A stretch of DNA of 24,398 nt, taken from positions 1 through 24,398 of the forward strand of contig JAUSPT010000012.1 in the NCBI GenBank assembly GCA_030652805.1, given 5' to 3'. The notes beneath the pieces are model-generated. The model saw nothing but the letters and a program-made list of their open reading frames with translations, searched no databases and was not told the DNA's origin. The translations under genes and the position numbers were made by a program. Shown one piece after another: positions 1,490 to 24,398 of this stretch. Position 1 is the stretch's first letter. Each line of letters opens with the position of its first letter. The DNA is from a bacterium. Lineage in GTDB: Bacteria; JAHJDO01.

Positions 1490-1774
1490 ATGAGTAAGAT
1501 TAAGGAGTTTTTCTGTCTTACAAACGATAATAATGGATTCAAGTTAGAGATTCTCGAAAATCCAGATGACAAATCTCTTTGTGCGGAACTAACCAGAATC
1601 GAGAATTATTTGCCTCGGCAGCACAGGGGCTCCGATCCGATTTCTTACATGAAATATCATGATTTAGAAAAAATCGTCGGCTCGAATCTCGACCAGATTG
1701 TTGCGAATGCTAAGGCGAGAATTCATGAGCTCGGATTCAATATGCTTAACTGGAAAGAAGAAGAAAAGTTATGA
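1490..1774 (+). CDS. Small unknown protein at the head of the type III restriction operon
   Basis: A 94-residue acidic-to-neutral protein. I prefer the ATG at 1490 because purine-rich AAAGGAAAGG lies 5-15 bases upstream; an in-frame ATG at 1457 would add eleven poorly structured residues with no ribosome site. Its last codon overlaps the start of mod (ATGA, 1771-1774), so it belongs to the restriction operon. I do not recognise a domain. The sequence begins MSKIKEFFCL, has a central YLPRQHRGSDPISYM stretch and ends in predicted helix. A structural accessory or regulatory role for the methyltransferase-nuclease complex is possible but only inferred from position. Confidence 0.7.
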   Translation: MSKIKEFFCLTNDNNGFKLEILENPDDKSLCAELTRIENYLPRQHRGSDPISYMKYHDLEKIVGSNLDQIVANAKARIHELGFNMLNWKEEEKL

Positions 1775-3459
1775 CAAAAAAGCGAAATTACGATAATTGG
1801 AGCAAAGAAGAGCTTATTCGTGAGGTTATTAAGCTCGAAAAACGCAAAAAATACGGTGTAGTATGGGAAGATAAGCTTGAAGAAGTAGCTACATTATGTA
1901 AGGAAAAATTACCGATTCTTGAGGAAGAAGTTAAAAAAGAAATTAAAACAGATAGCGAAAAACCAGTAAATATTTTGATAGAGGGCGATAATTATCATGC
2001 CCTGTCTGTTCTGAACTACACGCATAAAGGCAAAATTGACGTGATATATATTGATCCACCGTATAATACAGGGGCTAAAGATTGGAAGTATAATAATCAT
2101 TATGTGGATAGCAACGATCAATGGAGGCATAGCAAATGGCTTTCCTTTATGGACAAGAGGTTGAGACTTGCAAAAAAATTACTCAAGAAAAATGGAGTGT
2201 TCATTTGCACTATTGACCACAATGAACAGGAAGCTCTTGGTCTGCTTTTGCAAGAGATTTTCCCAGGGAAAAACATAGTATGCGTGACTATTGTTCATAA
2301 TCCTGCGGGGATACAAGGAGATAATTTTTCGTATTGTCATGAATATGCATATTTTGTTTTCTCTAAAGGCGGTAGATATATCGGTCATCAAATAAGAAAT
2401 GAAAATGAAGCCGATATTAGAAATTTTAGAGATGTAACAGGGGATGATTCTTTAAGGACTGCAGCTGCAAATTGTTTTTATCCAATCTACGTTAAAAATG
2501 GAGAAATTATTGGATTTGGTGATGTCTGTAGGAATGATTTTCATCCAGGTAAAGTTAATATTATTAAAAACAATGGAGTAATTGAAGTTTATCCGGTTGA
2601 TCCTCAAGACGTTGAAAGAAAATGGAGATTTGCAAGACAAACCGTAAAAGGCGTTAAAGATGAACTCAAAGCAAAATATATTAATAAACGTAAGGTATGG
2701 GATATAGTCAGGATTAAAAATAGATTTAACTACAAGACTGTCTGGAATGATAGCAGATACTCTTCAAATAATCATGGAACTCAGCTATTAAACCAAATCG
2801 TTGAAAGAAATGCATTTTCTTATCCAAAATCTATTTATGCAGTTATAGACAGTATAGATGCCGCATCAAAAAATAACAATGAAGCGATTATCCTTGATTT
2901 CTTTGCTGGTTCTGGAACTACAGGTCATGCGATTCTTGAGATGAATAAAGACGATGGGGGTAAAAGAAAATTTATTCTTTGTACAAATAACGAAAATAAA
3001 ATAGCTGAAGATATATGTTACCCAAGAATAAAAAACGTAATTAATGGATATATTGGAAGAATCAGTAGCAAAAGAATTAAGGGCCTAGCAGGGAATCTCA
3101 AATACTTCAAAACAGCCTTTGTAGATGCAAACCCTACAGATAAGAACAAAAAAAGACTAGTAGATAAATCAACAGAAATGCTTTGTTTGAAAGAAGACTG
3201 TTTTGATGAAGTCAAAAAAGGTGAGGATTTCAGAATATTTAAGAATAGTCAGAATAAATATCTAGGCATTATATATGATGATAAAGGAATAGAGGGTTTT
3301 AAGAAAGAAGCAAAGAAGATGAAAGAGAAGTTTGTCGTTTACGTATTTTCTCTTGATGAAAGCGCAAGAGAGGAAGAATTTGAGGATATGGCTGACATGG
3401 TGCAATTAAAACCGATTCCGGCAGTCATATTAAATGTATATAAGAGGATATTCAAATGA
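1771..3459 (+). CDS. mod: Type III restriction-modification system, DNA methyltransferase subunit (Mod)
   Basis: A 562-residue N6-adenine DNA methyltransferase of the beta class. The catalytic motif IV DPPYNTG (95-101) comes before the AdoMet-binding motif FFAGSGTTG (377-385), with the target-recognition region between them (about 170-370). The N-terminal lysine- and glutamate-rich stretch (1-65) is probably helical. Mod alone methylates one strand of an asymmetric site and also gives the nuclease complex its specificity. The start overlaps the upstream gene and the end overlaps res (ATGA at 3456-3459), so the subunits are co-translated. The length is slightly short for the family. No simple-sequence tract that would indicate phase variation was seen. 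The recognition site cannot be read from the sequence. Confidence 0.92.
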   Translation: MTKKRNYDNWSKEELIREVIKLEKRKKYGVVWEDKLEEVATLCKEKLPILEEEVKKEIKTDSEKPVNILIEGDNYHALSVLNYTHKGKIDVIYIDPPYNTGAKDWKYNNHYVDSNDQWRHSKWLSFMDKRLRLAKKLLKKNGVFICTIDHNEQEALGLLLQEIFPGKNIVCVTIVHNPAGIQGDNFSYCHEYAYFVFSKGGRYIGHQIRNENEADIRNFRDVTGDDSLRTAAANCFYPIYVKNGEIIGFGDVCRNDFHPGKVNIIKNNGVIEVYPVDPQDVERKWRFARQTVKGVKDELKAKYINKRKVWDIVRIKNRFNYKTVWNDSRYSSNNHGTQLLNQIVERNAFSYPKSIYAVIDSIDAASKNNNEAIILDFFAGSGTTGHAILEMNKDDGGKRKFILCTNNENKIAEDICYPRIKNVINGYIGRISSKRIKGLAGNLKYFKTAFVDANPTDKNKKRLVDKSTEMLCLKEDCFDEVKKGEDFRIFKNSQNKYLGIIYDDKGIEGFKKEAKKMKEKFVVYVFSLDESAREEEFEDMADMVQLKPIPAVILNVYKRIFK

Positions 3460-5657
3460 TAGAGTTACGAGATTATCAAGGGCAGGCGATAAAAAGTCTT
3501 CACGCTAAAGTTGAAAAAGTATTGATGACTCCTGAGAATGAAGTTGTAATATTTCAGGCCCCGACAGGTTCTGGTAAAACTCTTATGGTTTCGGAAATGC
3601 TTAAAAAGCTTGCAAGAGACAGAAAGAGTGATAAGGCATTTTCTTTTGTGTGGATTTCAGTAAGAATGTTGCACGAACAAAGCAAAGAAAAGTTAGAAAA
3701 GTATTACGAAGATGACAGGTTAATCCAATGTTCGTATTTTGAGGATTTAGAAGACAGGAAAATAGGCGAGAATGAGATTCTTTTCATAAACTGGCACAGC
3801 ATAAACAAAAAAGACATCAATATTTATGTGAGAGAAAATGAACAGGATAACAATTTAAATAGCATCATTCAGAATACCAAAGAAGAAGGCAGAGACATTA
3901 TGTTGATTATAGACGAAAGCCATCATACGGCCAAATCAGAGAAATCAAGGGAATTGATAGAAGTTATTTCTCCGAAGGTTACCCTAGAGATTTCAGCTAC
4001 GCCTCATTTAACAGAGAATATTTCTGAGATAGAAAGAGTGCATTTGGCAGACGTTAAGGCTGAAGAGATGATTAAATCGGAGATTTCTGTTAATCCGGAA
4101 TTTAGTAAGAAGAAGATTGGAAATAAGAGCGCAGACGAATTAGTCATAGAGTCTGCTTTATTAAAACGGAAATCGTTGCAGTTAAAATTAAAAGATGAAA
4201 ATACTAATATTAATCCTCTCGTTCTTATCCAGCTTCCGGATAAAAGAGAAGGGATGGATGATAAGAAAAGAAGTGTTATTAATATTCTAGAAGAGAAATT
4301 TGGCATTACAGAAAAGAATGAAAGATTAGCTATTTGGATTTCTGAACAACATTCAGATGCTCTCGCTAATATAGAAAAAAATGATAACAAAGTTGAAGTG
4401 CTGATATTTAAACAAGCAATAGCATTAGGGTGGGATTGTCCGAGAGCTTGTATCTTGGTGATTTTTAGAGAATCAAAGAGTTTTACTTTCACCATTCAGA
4501 CAATAGGCAGGATAATGCGGATGCCTGAATTAAAATATTATAATGAATCAGAACTAAATAAAGGATTTGTTTTTACTAACCTGCCGAACATAGAGATTAC
4601 AGAAGATTATGTAAAGGATTACATCACGATATACGAAGGAAAGAGAGATAATAAATTATATAGCGACGTTTCTATTCCTTCGATTTACCTGAAGCGGCAA
4701 AGAGAGAGGACGAGGCTTTCTGGAAAGTTTGTTAACATATTCTTTGGGGTCGCAGAAGAATATAAATTAGACGATGAAATTGATGCCGAGCCATCGCGTA
4801 TCATTAATCCAGTTATAACTGATGGAAGGATTGTGGATGTTGATAAAGCTGGCGAAATAGAACACAAAGGAACAATAGATATTAAATTAAATGAGAAGGA
4901 GTTATCAGATAGGTTTGACAGGTTTATAGCGCAAGCTTGCTCTCCTTACGCTCCCGTTGATTCAAGCGATAGAATGAAGACGGCAATTTACTTATTCATT
5001 AAGCAGAAATACAAAATTGATAAATATGACCCAAAAGCCCAAATGATTGTTTTAAGCAAGAAGAACTATCAGTCTTTTAATGATATTATAAATCTGGCAA
5101 AAGAGAGGTTTAGGACGGACGTAATTGAGAAACTAAGTGAAACGCGCGAAGTGCAGCAGGTAGAGGAATGGGAAGTACCACAATTGGTTAGTTACAATAG
5201 TAGGTATAAGAAGCAAGAAAAAAATAAATCAATTATGAAGCCGTTCTATGTTGCGCAATTAAGTGAGCCAGAAGAAAATTTTATCGAGTTAATGGAGAAC
5301 TCTGATAAAGTTAAATGGTGGTTTAGGAATGGCCAGGGGGAAATAAAGTATTTTGCTGTCTCATATAAAGATAAAGACGGTATCAAGAGAGGTTTCTATG
5401 TGGATTTTATAGTGATGATGAAGGATGGGCGAATAGGTTTATTTGATACTAAAAAGGGATTCACTGCAGAATTGGCAAAGGAGAGAGCAGAAGCATTGGC
5501 GCAATATATCAAGGAGCAAAATAAAAAGCAAAAAAGTAAGCTTTGGGGTGGAATTGTGACATTTAAAGATGGAAGTTGCAGGTATAACGATTCTGAGAGC
5601 TATGGTGGTGCTATTTCAGAAAGCCAAGCCCCTTACTGGGGAATTTTATCTCTTTGA
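3456..5657 (+). CDS. res: Type III restriction enzyme, helicase-nuclease subunit (Res)
   Basis: A 733-residue superfamily 2 helicase fused to a nuclease. Visible motifs are Walker A APTGSGKT (35-42), motif II DESHH (153-157), motif III SATPH (180-184) and motif VI QTIGRIMRMP (348-357). The C-terminal region carries a PD-(D/E)xK-type centre: D650 in YVDFIV, then FDTKKG with D664 and K666. All key residues are present, so the enzyme looks intact. With Mod it forms the ATP-dependent complex that cuts beside unmethylated sites on invading DNA. The ATGA overlap with mod is typical. No terminator follows directly; the next 290 bases are repeats. Confidence 0.92.
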   Translation: MIELRDYQGQAIKSLHAKVEKVLMTPENEVVIFQAPTGSGKTLMVSEMLKKLARDRKSDKAFSFVWISVRMLHEQSKEKLEKYYEDDRLIQCSYFEDLEDRKIGENEILFINWHSINKKDINIYVRENEQDNNLNSIIQNTKEEGRDIMLIIDESHHTAKSEKSRELIEVISPKVTLEISATPHLTENISEIERVHLADVKAEEMIKSEISVNPEFSKKKIGNKSADELVIESALLKRKSLQLKLKDENTNINPLVLIQLPDKREGMDDKKRSVINILEEKFGITEKNERLAIWISEQHSDALANIEKNDNKVEVLIFKQAIALGWDCPRACILVIFRESKSFTFTIQTIGRIMRMPELKYYNESELNKGFVFTNLPNIEITEDYVKDYITIYEGKRDNKLYSDVSIPSIYLKRQRERTRLSGKFVNIFFGVAEEYKLDDEIDAEPSRIINPVITDGRIVDVDKAGEIEHKGTIDIKLNEKELSDRFDRFIAQACSPYAPVDSSDRMKTAIYLFIKQKYKIDKYDPKAQMIVLSKKNYQSFNDIINLAKERFRTDVIEKLSETREVQQVEEWEVPQLVSYNSRYKKQEKNKSIMKPFYVAQLSEPEENFIELMENSDKVKWWFRNGQGEIKYFAVSYKDKDGIKRGFYVDFIVMMKDGRIGLFDTKKGFTAELAKERAEALAQYIKEQNKKQKSKLWGGIVTFKDGSCRYNDSESYGGAISESQAPYWGILSL

Positions 5658-21544: not shown

Positions 21545-22825
21545 ATGCGGGAAAGGCTGATTATACAGGGGGGAAAACAGCTAAAAGGGGAAATCTCTCC
21601 TGCCGGAAATAAGAATGAGGCGTTAGCAATACTGGCAGCATCTCTTCTGACGGAGGAGGCCGTCAGGCTCAAGAATGTACCGGATATTTGTGATGTTCGG
21701 GACATGGTTGAGATTATGCGTGATATTGGAGTAGATGTAAAAAGAGTAGGAGAGCATGAGTATTTAATTAAGGCATTATCTATAAAAAAGATGGAGTTAA
21801 ATTCTGAGCTATGTTCTCGGATAAGAGGTTCATTCCTGTTTGCAGCGCCTATTCTGGTAAGATGTGGCAAGGTAAAATTACCAAAGCCCGGAGGAGATAG
21901 AATAGGGCGGCGCAGAATTGACACACATCTACTTGCTCTGGAGGCATTAGGTACTTCTGTTAGTGTTGGAAATGACTATAAGTTAGAAATCGGAACTGGT
22001 TTTCACGGCGCTGATATTTTTCTGGATGAGGCAAGTGTTATGGCAACGGAAAATACAATAATGGCAGCTGCGTTTGCCAAGGGGAAGACTACTATAGTTA
22101 ACGCAGCTTCAGAGCCTCATGTGCAGGGTTTGTGTAAGTTCCTTAATTCTCTTGGCGCAAAAATATCCGGTATAGGCAGCAACATCTTAACAATAGAAGG
22201 AGTAAAGCAGCTATGTGGCGGAGAGTATTTAATATCCTCAGACCACATTGAAACAGGTAGCTTTATAGGGCTTGCTGCGGCTACACATAGTGAATTATTA
22301 ATAAAAAATGCGCCTGTAGAACATATGAGAATTATTTTCTTGGTCCTTGAAAAACTTGGAATAAGTTTAGAGATAGATAAAAGGGATATTTTTGTTCCTG
22401 TTCAGAAAAAGATGAAAGTTGTTACGGATGTTGGTGGCGCAATACCTAAGATAGATGATAGTCCATGGCCTGGATTTCCAGCAGATCTTGTAAGTATAGC
22501 ACTTGTTATCGCCACTCAGTCAGAAGGCACAGTTTTAATATTTGAAAAGATGTTTGAAAGCCGTCTCTACTTTGTTGATGAATTGATTAATATGGGAGCA
22601 AAGATTGTTTTGTGTGATCCTCACAGAGCAGTAATTGTGGGCCCTTCAGATTTACACGGATGTGAGATTGTAAGTCCTGATATTAGAGCTGGAATGGCAC
22701 TCCTTATAGCAGCCCTATGCGCAAAGGGGAAAAGCACAATACATAATATCAGGCAGATAGACAGGGGATATGAAAGAATAGACCAAAGGCTGTGTTCCTT
22801 GGGTGCGGATATTGTGAGGGTTTGA
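21545..22825 (+). CDS. murA: UDP-N-acetylglucosamine 1-carboxyvinyltransferase with Asp in place of the active-site Cys
   Basis: A 426-residue enolpyruvyl transferase catalysing the first committed peptidoglycan step, from PEP and UDP-GlcNAc. The start ATG is eight bases after GAGGAA. Family marks are [15 protein letters not shown] (K23, N24), [36 protein letters not shown] and [18 protein letters not shown]. In the loop PGG-x-RIG most bacteria have Cys (C115 in E. coli); here residue 118 is Asp (GAT at 21896-21898). Asp at this position keeps activity and gives intrinsic fosfomycin resistance in chlamydiae and mycobacteria. The usual Arg-Pro after it reads Arg-Arg. Fold and length are otherwise normal. 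Confidence 0.9.
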
Positions 22826-22839
22826 TAATAATTTAGCTG

Positions 22840-22886
22840 TGTTAGATAAAATTTAAAAGTGCACAGTTTAAAGTTTAAAAGTGCAC
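22840..22886. repeat. Left end of the insertion sequence with two transposase-site repeats
   Basis: The outer copy of TTTAAAAGTGCAC is at 22852-22864 and the inner copy at 22874-22886, 22 bp apart. The inner copy also encodes the last residues and stop codon of the transposase (VHF-stop). Confidence 0.85.
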
Positions 22887-24134
22887 AATATTTAGGTCTT
22901 CATTTTTAGCTGTTTGAACACCAACAAGCCTATTGTCATACCAGCACCTGATTTCAGATATGCCAGTTTTCTCATCAGGATAAATACGCAGATTAACCTT
23001 ACTTCCAATAGGAGCATCGCTAATTTTCAATAAGATGTTGTTAATAGAAATTTTCCTGTAAGGGTTAACGGTTCTATCCATTCTTAAACAGAAGATATCC
23101 TTTACAGATTGAAAAGGCGGCTTGATAACAAACGGTCTAAATAACGACTTTTTCTCTTTTAAGGCTCTTTGAAATCTAAAATAAGGCACTTCGCCTGTAG
23201 TTGAATGAATACGGTGATAGTTATACTGCCCAACTTCTTGAAATAATATTCTTTTAGCGCCTTGGATATCAACTATATTTTCTCTTGCGCATATTCTGAC
23301 TAAATGATCCTGTATCCATCGGTAAGGACGCTCAACCTTGCCTTTTGCCTGAGGAGATAGGGCGGGAATATATTTGACATTACAATCATTAAGAACCTGT
23401 TTCCACTGGGTGTCTACTTCATCAGTGAGTTTGTAATGTTTGCGCCAAATAGAATCTCTACCCTGCACAAATCGGAATATTGAATGAGAATCAGCATAAA
23501 TAGAAAGAGGGAAACCGTATTTTAGAAATAAGTCTTGAATAGCCATAATATGAGCCAAAGTAGTCTCTTTTCTGATTAGACCAGCGTATAACATATACCG
23601 GCTGAAGTCATCAATGGATGTGATTAAATACCACTTTTCTTGAGCATAGGGCGACCATTTATGGTAAGAGGAATCATGTTGGATAAGTTCTCCTGCGTAA
23701 TTGGTTAAGACTTCTCGATCATGAGCCTTATGTTTGATCCTTTTAAGATAAAAACCGTGTTTTTTAGCCCGGCTGATGATTGTGGGCAGAGAAACTATTT
23801 GTTTTTCTTTAGTTGCAAGCTGGTTTTTAATAAAGCTGTAGTTGTATGATTTAATAGTGGTGTCTTTATCCTTAATGAGTTCTTCCTCAAAAGTTAACTC
23901 TTTAAGGATATTCTTTTCGATTGCAGGGTCAATAGCTCTGGGATTTTTCTTCCTGTGGTACTGAATGGAAAAGCCATCGGAATTCTCGCGATACTGCTTA
24001 ACCAAGTCACAAAAGCGTCTTCTTTTGATATCCAGAATTTCTTGAAGATAGCTTCTTTTGATATCCCCTTTTAGATAACGCCCAATAAGCTCTTTGACTT
24101 GATTGTCTGTAAATCTTTTGTGAAGCTGCGCCAT
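22875..24134 (-). CDS. DDE integrase-core transposase
   Basis: A 419-residue transposase starting at ATG 24134-24132, with AGGGAGGG eight bases upstream. The N-terminal 130 residues form helix-turn-helix-type DNA-binding regions (VKELIGRYLKGDIKRSYLQEIL). The integrase core shows the three acidic residues in context: ELIQHDSSYHKW (first D), SIYADSHSIFRF (second D) and SPQAKGKVERPYRWIQD (E). This resembles the ISNCY/IS1202 and IS481 groups. The C-terminal domain (about 330-419) is probably beta-rich. The frame is intact, so it may be active. The start codon lies in a perfect inverted repeat (24133-24173), and a folded leader precedes it, suggesting tight control of expression. Confidence 0.88.
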   Translation of the reverse strand: MAQLHKRFTDNQVKELIGRYLKGDIKRSYLQEILDIKRRRFCDLVKQYRENSDGFSIQYHRKKNPRAIDPAIEKNILKELTFEEELIKDKDTTIKSYNYSFIKNQLATKEKQIVSLPTIISRAKKHGFYLKRIKHKAHDREVLTNYAGELIQHDSSYHKWSPYAQEKWYLITSIDDFSRYMLYAGLIRKETTLAHIMAIQDLFLKYGFPLSIYADSHSIFRFVQGRDSIWRKHYKLTDEVDTQWKQVLNDCNVKYIPALSPQAKGKVERPYRWIQDHLVRICARENIVDIQGAKRILFQEVGQYNYHRIHSTTGEVPYFRFQRALKEKKSLFRPFVIKPPFQSVKDIFCLRMDRTVNPYRKISINNILLKISDAPIGSKVNLRIYPDEKTGISEIRCWYDNRLVGVQTAKNEDLNIVHF

Positions 24135-24173
24135 GATTTAAACCCTCCCTTTTTAACGCAGAGTTTAAATCAT
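24133..24173 (-). promoter_or_regulatory. Hairpin that traps the transposase start codon
   Basis: ATGATTTAAAC (24133-24143) and GTTTAAATCAT (24163-24173) are perfect 11-bp inverted repeats. In the minus-strand mRNA the loop of 19 bases contains most of the ribosome site (GGGAGG), and the 3' arm ends inside the AUG. The stem is AT-rich, so it should be moderately stable and could be opened by ribosomes or another structure. It could alternatively be a DNA operator. Confidence 0.7.
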
Positions 24174-24187
24174 AACTATCTTTAATA

Positions 24188-24274
24188 ATTGTGGAAACTG
24201 CCGTTCTGTGGATAACTCTCCGAGTTACCCACATCGCTTGGACAACCTTGCAGGTTGACCACAGTTACCACAAT
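24188..24274 (-). promoter_or_regulatory. Three-way-junction element in the transposase leader
   Basis: Three nested inverted repeats: outer stem 24188-24200 with 24262-24274 (12 of 13 pairs); inner hairpin 24207-24218 with 24222-24233 (12 pairs, one G-U in the minus-strand RNA, three-base loop); inner hairpin 24239-24248 with 24252-24261 (9 of 10 pairs, three-base loop). All six arms are variants of TGTGG(T/A)TAACT. The arm at 24207-24215 is a perfect DnaA box (TTATCCACA on the minus strand), and its partner TTACCCACA differs by one base. It lies between the predicted promoter and the start-codon hairpin. Confidence 0.7.
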
Positions 24275-24284
24275 ACTGCTGTAT

Positions 24285-24313
24285 TTTATATATCTCTTCT
24301 TTTCAACCCCCAA
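24285..24313 (-). promoter_or_regulatory. Possible transposase promoter
   Basis: On the minus strand TTGGGG (24313-24308), a 17-bp spacer and TATAAA (24290-24285). The -35 is a weak match. The predicted start, near 24278, would place the three-way junction at the very 5' end of the mRNA. Confidence 0.4.
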
Positions 24314-24314
24314 A

Positions 24315-24336
24315 CCCCCATTCTTGGGGGCTTTTT
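24315..24336 (+). terminator. Plus-strand terminator inside the insertion sequence end
   Basis: CCCCCA/TGGGGG with a TTCT loop is followed by C and five T residues. It acts on rightward transcripts, opposite to the transposase, and would stop read-through from the murA side after it has crossed the element. Confidence 0.7.
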
Positions 24337-24340
24337 AGGT

Positions 24341-24398
24341 GTGCACTTTTAAAACTTAAATCGCTTAAAAACTGTGCACTTTTAAATTTTAACTGACA
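24341..24398. repeat. Right end of the insertion sequence with two transposase-site repeats
   Basis: Inverse copies of TTTAAAAGTGCAC lie at 24341-24353 and 24374-24386, 33 bp apart, compared with 22 bp at the left end. The tip is ACTGACA at 24392-24398. Confidence 0.85.

Follow-up and report, generated by a model that had tools for sequence, protein, structure and literature searches.

The window, the whole 24,398-nucleotide stretch of DNA analysed here, ends in a complete ISNCY-like insertion sequence (IS) of 1559 bp (22840..24398, minus strand), bounded by TGTTAGATAAAATTTAAAAGTGCACAG and TGTCAGTTAAAATTTAAAAGTGCACAG in inverted orientation. Its transposase gene (22875..24134, minus strand) encodes a 419-residue, ISNCY_2-like DDE protein related to IS481. 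The protein is a relative of ISNCY_2 only: it matched NCBIfam NF033594 with E 3e-43 and 148 bits against a curated cut-off of 250, which the transposase of locus L097 passes at 410 bits, and a Pfam search with the window transposase gave no match. Left of the IS lies a 16-bp target duplication, GATAATAATTTAGCTG (22824..22839, plus strand), the other copy of which adjoins the IS end on contig C83. Because contigs C12 and C83 both carry this duplication, they are neighbours. The genome contains several copies of the IS: five right and four left ends were counted, mostly at contig breaks; a second copy (C50/C95) has a target duplication of about 15 bp. Insertion of the window IS took place directly at the stop codon of a MurA-like gene. 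Elsewhere in the window (1771-5657), adjoining DNA-methyltransferase-like and helicase/restriction-like genes, recognized by eye, are possibly a type III restriction-modification system.

In the transposase leader, about 50 nt before the start codon, the minus strand of positions 24188-24274 forms a three-way junction composed of an outer stem and two hairpins with three-base loops, as supported by RNA and DNA folds, a covariance-model match of 90-104 bits, and covariation. The outer stem P1 pairs 24262-24274 with 24188-24200 and encloses hairpins P2 (24239-24261, loop GCA at 24249-24251) and P3 (24207-24233, loop GGA at 24219-24221); P2, P3 and P1 are linked by short GC/GA joints. The minus strand folded as RNA at -40.5 kcal/mol (z -6.13) and the plus strand as DNA gave z -6.60, with 0 of 200 shuffles equal in either case, confirming the position and fold proposed in a preliminary description of this DNA. 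That description also held all six arms to be versions of one motif; a TGTGG...TAACT-like motif is indeed common to the arms but is loose in the first hairpin (TGGTCAACC). Directly at the base of P1, on its 5' side, is a CAGCAGT tag (24275..24281, minus strand), a YMG triplet run that contains GCAG and was assigned from the family-wide tag count described below.

A window scan also identified a GC-rich hairpin followed by a T-run (24315..24330, plus strand), which is terminator-like for transcripts leaving the IS; such a hairpin precedes the element in the leader of the ISNCY relative L085 as well. GC-rich palindromes (CCCCCAAGAATGGGGG; CTCTCCCTTGATGGGAGAGGG...GGGTGAGGG) recur just before junction elements, at window 24315-24330, at L096 1440-1480 and in the upstream flanks of L102 and L054, and may be another repeat family. 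The promoter that had been predicted to start the mRNA at the outer stem was not borne out: scanning the minus strand of the window returned a single weak promoter-like site (24197-24169), where 0.8 were expected by chance, and this site is located at the base of the stem on the transposase side.

Distribution and genomic context of the element

A DNA search of the window's genome revealed a 72% identical copy of the element downstream of an IS256/Mutator transposase. A covariance model (R1) was built from five sequences with two arms shortened by hand, then refined to R2 and R3. Models were run on about 400 distinct genomes of 97,973, most of them drafts in which IS fall at contig ends, and detected the element in about 16 genomes from at least five phylum-level groups. 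Phylum queries assigned G042, G181, G273/G397 and G320 to four phylum-level groups apart from the window's own; the groups taken in by the phylum searches for G042, G181, G273 and G320 were small. Copies number 1-8 per genome and reside mainly in IS; they are 50-170 nt long and mostly branched, the ends of the mobile unit being placed only approximately. One match, L103, was removed from the genome count: it consists of clustered DnaA boxes and was judged a chance match. The window element had no Rfam match at gathering score, further search yielding only sub-threshold plant miRNA matches, and no DNA match in plasmid, phage and E. coli collections, among which there was no cultured host. Pattern matches in viral contigs were at chance level and none was scored by R3. 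The window structure is thus a member of a previously unlisted family, of which an earlier description is possible given that most subscription papers lay outside the literature search. The covariance model allows the element to be annotated easily.

The host IS belong to unrelated families (ISNCY, IS256, IS110 and IS21), and in them the element is located in the interval that separates the transposase gene from the IS end. Its orientation varies. Among ISNCY-like IS it is upstream and sense in the window and L096, and downstream and antisense in L097 and L105/L109. In IS256 it is downstream antisense in L098 and downstream sense on contig C1 of the window's genome and in G002. It is downstream and antisense in IS110 (L099), in IS21 next to IstB (L100, L101/L108, L140/L142) and in a remote DDE group in G042. 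In L060 it precedes an ORF whose identity as a transposase is unproven. Read from the nearest IS end, the folded strand points inward in nine of the ten arrangements scored, which is suggestive only, as the sample is small and partly of shared ancestry and includes the unproven L060 ORF. Two copies in G002 are not within any IS seen; their contigs carry RPA-type Rep, TraC/TraE, ParA, DnaN and ArdC genes, and we infer that these contigs are one conjugative plasmid. A plasmid-like contig of G002 carrying element L054 also has a reverse transcriptase gene (RVT_1; L090 1132-2151, G002:C130).

The preliminary description had raised the possibility of an RNA switch for transposase expression. An mRNA leader would always occupy the 5' UTR in sense orientation, whereas the copies in L053, L097-L100, L109, L140 and L142 are downstream and antisense. 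Because most copies are antisense and downstream of their transposase gene and some are in no IS seen, a switch fails as a general account, and we conclude that controlling the transposase as an mRNA switch is not the element's primary role. For the window IS itself, the preliminary description had named homologous IS without the repeats as evidence against its proposal, and two relatives, L013 and L014 (best tblastn segments 60-67% identical), do lack the element. A third candidate, L012, was unusable for this comparison because its contig begins 69 nt before the gene. Right ends of this IS in G002 (L047-L049) nearly match the window's up to GGGGGTTTGGGGG, followed by wholly different sequence; apparently, either the leader was exchanged or the module was never there.

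Conserved structure, modular arms and strand specificity

We examined covariation in an alignment of 16 sequences. Changes on both sides were present in 26 of 36 pairs, a count equalled by 0 of 500 shuffles, and there were 100 double-change cells compared to 29 in shuffles. Overall, 93.7% of cells were paired, against 74.9% when shuffled and 38-47% when slid. These counts lean towards the model because the alignment was fitted to it; folds of single sequences gave the same architecture. Compensatory changes were also found in an earlier count on 12 sequences. The joints are conserved as well, as A-GC-(GA) before P3 and (GA)-GC-G(T/G)C after it. Compensatory changes thus occur in all stems, the outcome that the preliminary description had named as its test, and the junction structure is under selection and conserved by compensatory change.

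The number of arms is variable. The window element and most others are three-way junctions; L086, L104, L105 and L109 are single long hairpins without P3, and L084, L101 and L108 are nested double junctions. In the otherwise highly similar IS copies of G042, P2 is either TAACTC-AAA-GAGTTA or GGTCGCC-TCG-GGCGACT, and all four combinations of P2 type and upstream variant are present. The second of these arms recurs letter for letter in the diverged IS L062. P2 swaps in near-identical IS, together with an identical arm in a diverged one, indicate that whole arms are moved or recombined as units. The usual definition of an IS family rests on its transposase and ends; in this case, a single noncoding structured module that changes its arms block-wise is common to ISNCY, IS256, IS110, IS21 and plasmid-like contigs in at least five phylum-level groups.

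The sense strand folded better than its complement in all 21 elements compared, with both RNA and DNA parameter sets. Among relatives there were 42 G-T cells and 8 A-C cells, the latter mostly from the degenerate copies L107 and L102. These counts fix the strand, but neither they nor the folding energies separate RNA from single-stranded DNA (ssDNA). The G-U pair that had been taken as a hint of selection on RNA does exist, in the second hairpin.

We then considered sequence outside the stems. A GYMG tag lies within about 20 nt on the 5' side in 19 of 23 elements and on the 3' side in 2 of 23; shuffling gave a mean of 4.2 and a maximum of 12 of 23 in 2000 shuffles. YMG triplet runs were present in 17 elements on the 5' side and in 0 on the other. 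The tag takes the forms GTAG, GCAG or GTCG, often as triplet runs, and is followed by a stem with TGTGG/CCACA at its base; it is absent in 4 of 23 copies. At one ISNCY end (L086 52-116, G060), a nearly symmetric AGTAGTAGTAATGTGG hairpin also takes in the tag, which pairs with TACTACCACTACT on the 3' side. The loops are also distinctive. GNA accounts for 9 of 16 distinct triloops of the elements, compared to 39 of 243 in other hairpins of the same DNA counted on either strand (about 8% per strand), and there is only one GNRA tetraloop, GNRA and UUCG being nearly absent. GNA triloops are unusually stable in DNA mini-hairpins and are found in RNA too.

Candidate functions of the element

The 5' GYMG tag, the GNA triloops and the strand specificity point to ssDNA, making a DNA structure with a putative binding protein, the alternative offered in the preliminary description, the better of its two options. 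Our preferred reading, held tentatively and with somewhat less than even confidence, is that the element belongs to a family of tagged, branched palindromes similar to repetitive extragenic palindromes (REPs), acting as ssDNA and riding on other mobile elements. A strand exposed as ssDNA, whether as lagging-strand template, copied-out IS or conjugating plasmid, would fold, and a candidate protein would recognise the tag plus hairpin, by analogy with the TnpA_REP (RAYT) HUH proteins that read GTAG-tagged REPs. Such recognition would account for both the spread of the element and the exchange of its arms. TnpA_REP reads GTAG plus a loop or bulge on ssDNA (PMC8266576), and degenerate REP tags, GYAG and GTMG, are documented (PMC3733652). 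As in GTAG- and CGTC-tagged REP palindromes and REPtrons, the element combines an unpaired 5' GYMG-type tag with a strand-specific hairpin, many loops of 2-4 nt and a position often 3' of genes (PMC3733652, PMC8266576). The unpaired tag at the hairpin foot that marks the GTAG superfamily of REPs is present in the 19 tagged copies.

Several features count against this REP-like reading. REPs are short single palindromes of 20-40 nt, whereas the element is branched or nested at its 50-170 nt, with a TGTGG/CCACA core and a triplet-run tag, and four of the 23 copies are untagged. REPs are interspersed on the chromosome at high copy, usually more than 100 per genome, against 1-8 copies located inside IS and on plasmid-like contigs. 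In addition, the element flanked 0 of 30 Y1_Tnp loci inspected, which were mainly from genomes lacking it, and no REPtron was found among them. Weakly in favour of the REP-like reading, Y1_Tnp genes occurred in 13 of the 14 sampled genomes with the element compared to 223 of 385 overall, a difference confounded by relatedness and IS load. The subterminal hairpins of IS200/IS605 are similar in being ssDNA structures near a mobile-element end with a 5' guide tetranucleotide, but the hosts here are DDE/DEDD transposons with double-stranded DNA chemistry and carry one structure per element rather than one at each end. If the element does act as ssDNA, REP-like biology would no longer be limited to short repeats of the chromosome but would include branched modules carried by transposons, and the element would offer an experimental route to the way in which host replication completes copy-out transposition.

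A close rival, which we regard as rather unlikely, is a site of single-strand initiation or promotion (ssi/Frpo-like, or a primosome-loading hairpin), in which a displaced or transferred strand folds and primes its complementary strand. IS21, IS256 and IS110 are among eight families listed as copy-out/paste-in (PMC9333248), a pathway in which the flanking 3'-OH primes host replication that runs inward and completes circles (PMC9333248, PMC7780238). A folded strand that reads inward from an IS end would therefore be on the displaced strand of that end, as in the nine of ten arrangements above, few and related as these are; two copies, the IS256-like one of the window's genome and the one near Rep, do not agree with a single simple polarity. 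Frpo/ssi sites transcribe from the incoming strand (PMC11541004), and the plasmid-like copies lie near Rep and ArdC, the folded strand being the template strand for ArdC. Like Frpo/ssi sites and ABC-primosome hairpins, which are structured ssDNA sites on conjugative plasmids, the element has stems resembling DnaA boxes; unlike them, it showed no conserved -10/-35 or DnaA box and is mostly in IS. No -10/-35 was found in the hairpin in the window scan and no conserved hexamers were seen in alignments. DnaA binding was rejected as a conserved function: TTATNCACA is present in the window, C1 and L095 but lost, with the stems kept, in L097, L098 and L099. The REP-like and single-strand initiation readings are not mutually exclusive. 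A wider proposal, which we consider doubtful, is a new class of modular, branched, cis-acting ssDNA control element, acquired independently by unrelated copy-out/paste-in IS and by conjugative plasmids because it aids the single-to-double strand conversion of their intermediates.

Alternatively, the structure could act as an RNA insulator or regulator, blocking or destabilising transcripts that enter the IS or folding the transposase leader; this we consider quite unlikely. In most arrangements the sense strand runs inward from outside the IS, so that the structure would be part of entering transcripts, and the excess of G-T over A-C pairs is tolerated by RNA too, but the polarity is reversed in the IS256-like copy, and the loops are GNA triloops rather than GNRA or UUCG. 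The window copy precedes the transposase start as does the 5'-UTR structure that controls the ISPpu9 transposase (PMC8450116); unlike such leaders, most copies are downstream and antisense, and some are on a plasmid-like backbone. There is no U-tract, the window promoter does not rise above chance, and the element is absent from Rfam. Insulation of entering transcripts is thus possible but poorly supported.

Least probable, in our view, is a passive hitchhiker arising from hairpin-templated replication errors and recombination and amplified only by IS transposition, as the block exchange of arms and the nested hairpins resemble DNA-level processes and the low copy numbers track those of the IS, but a 5' tag, unpaired joints and a strand bias kept among phylum-level groups need a selecting agent.
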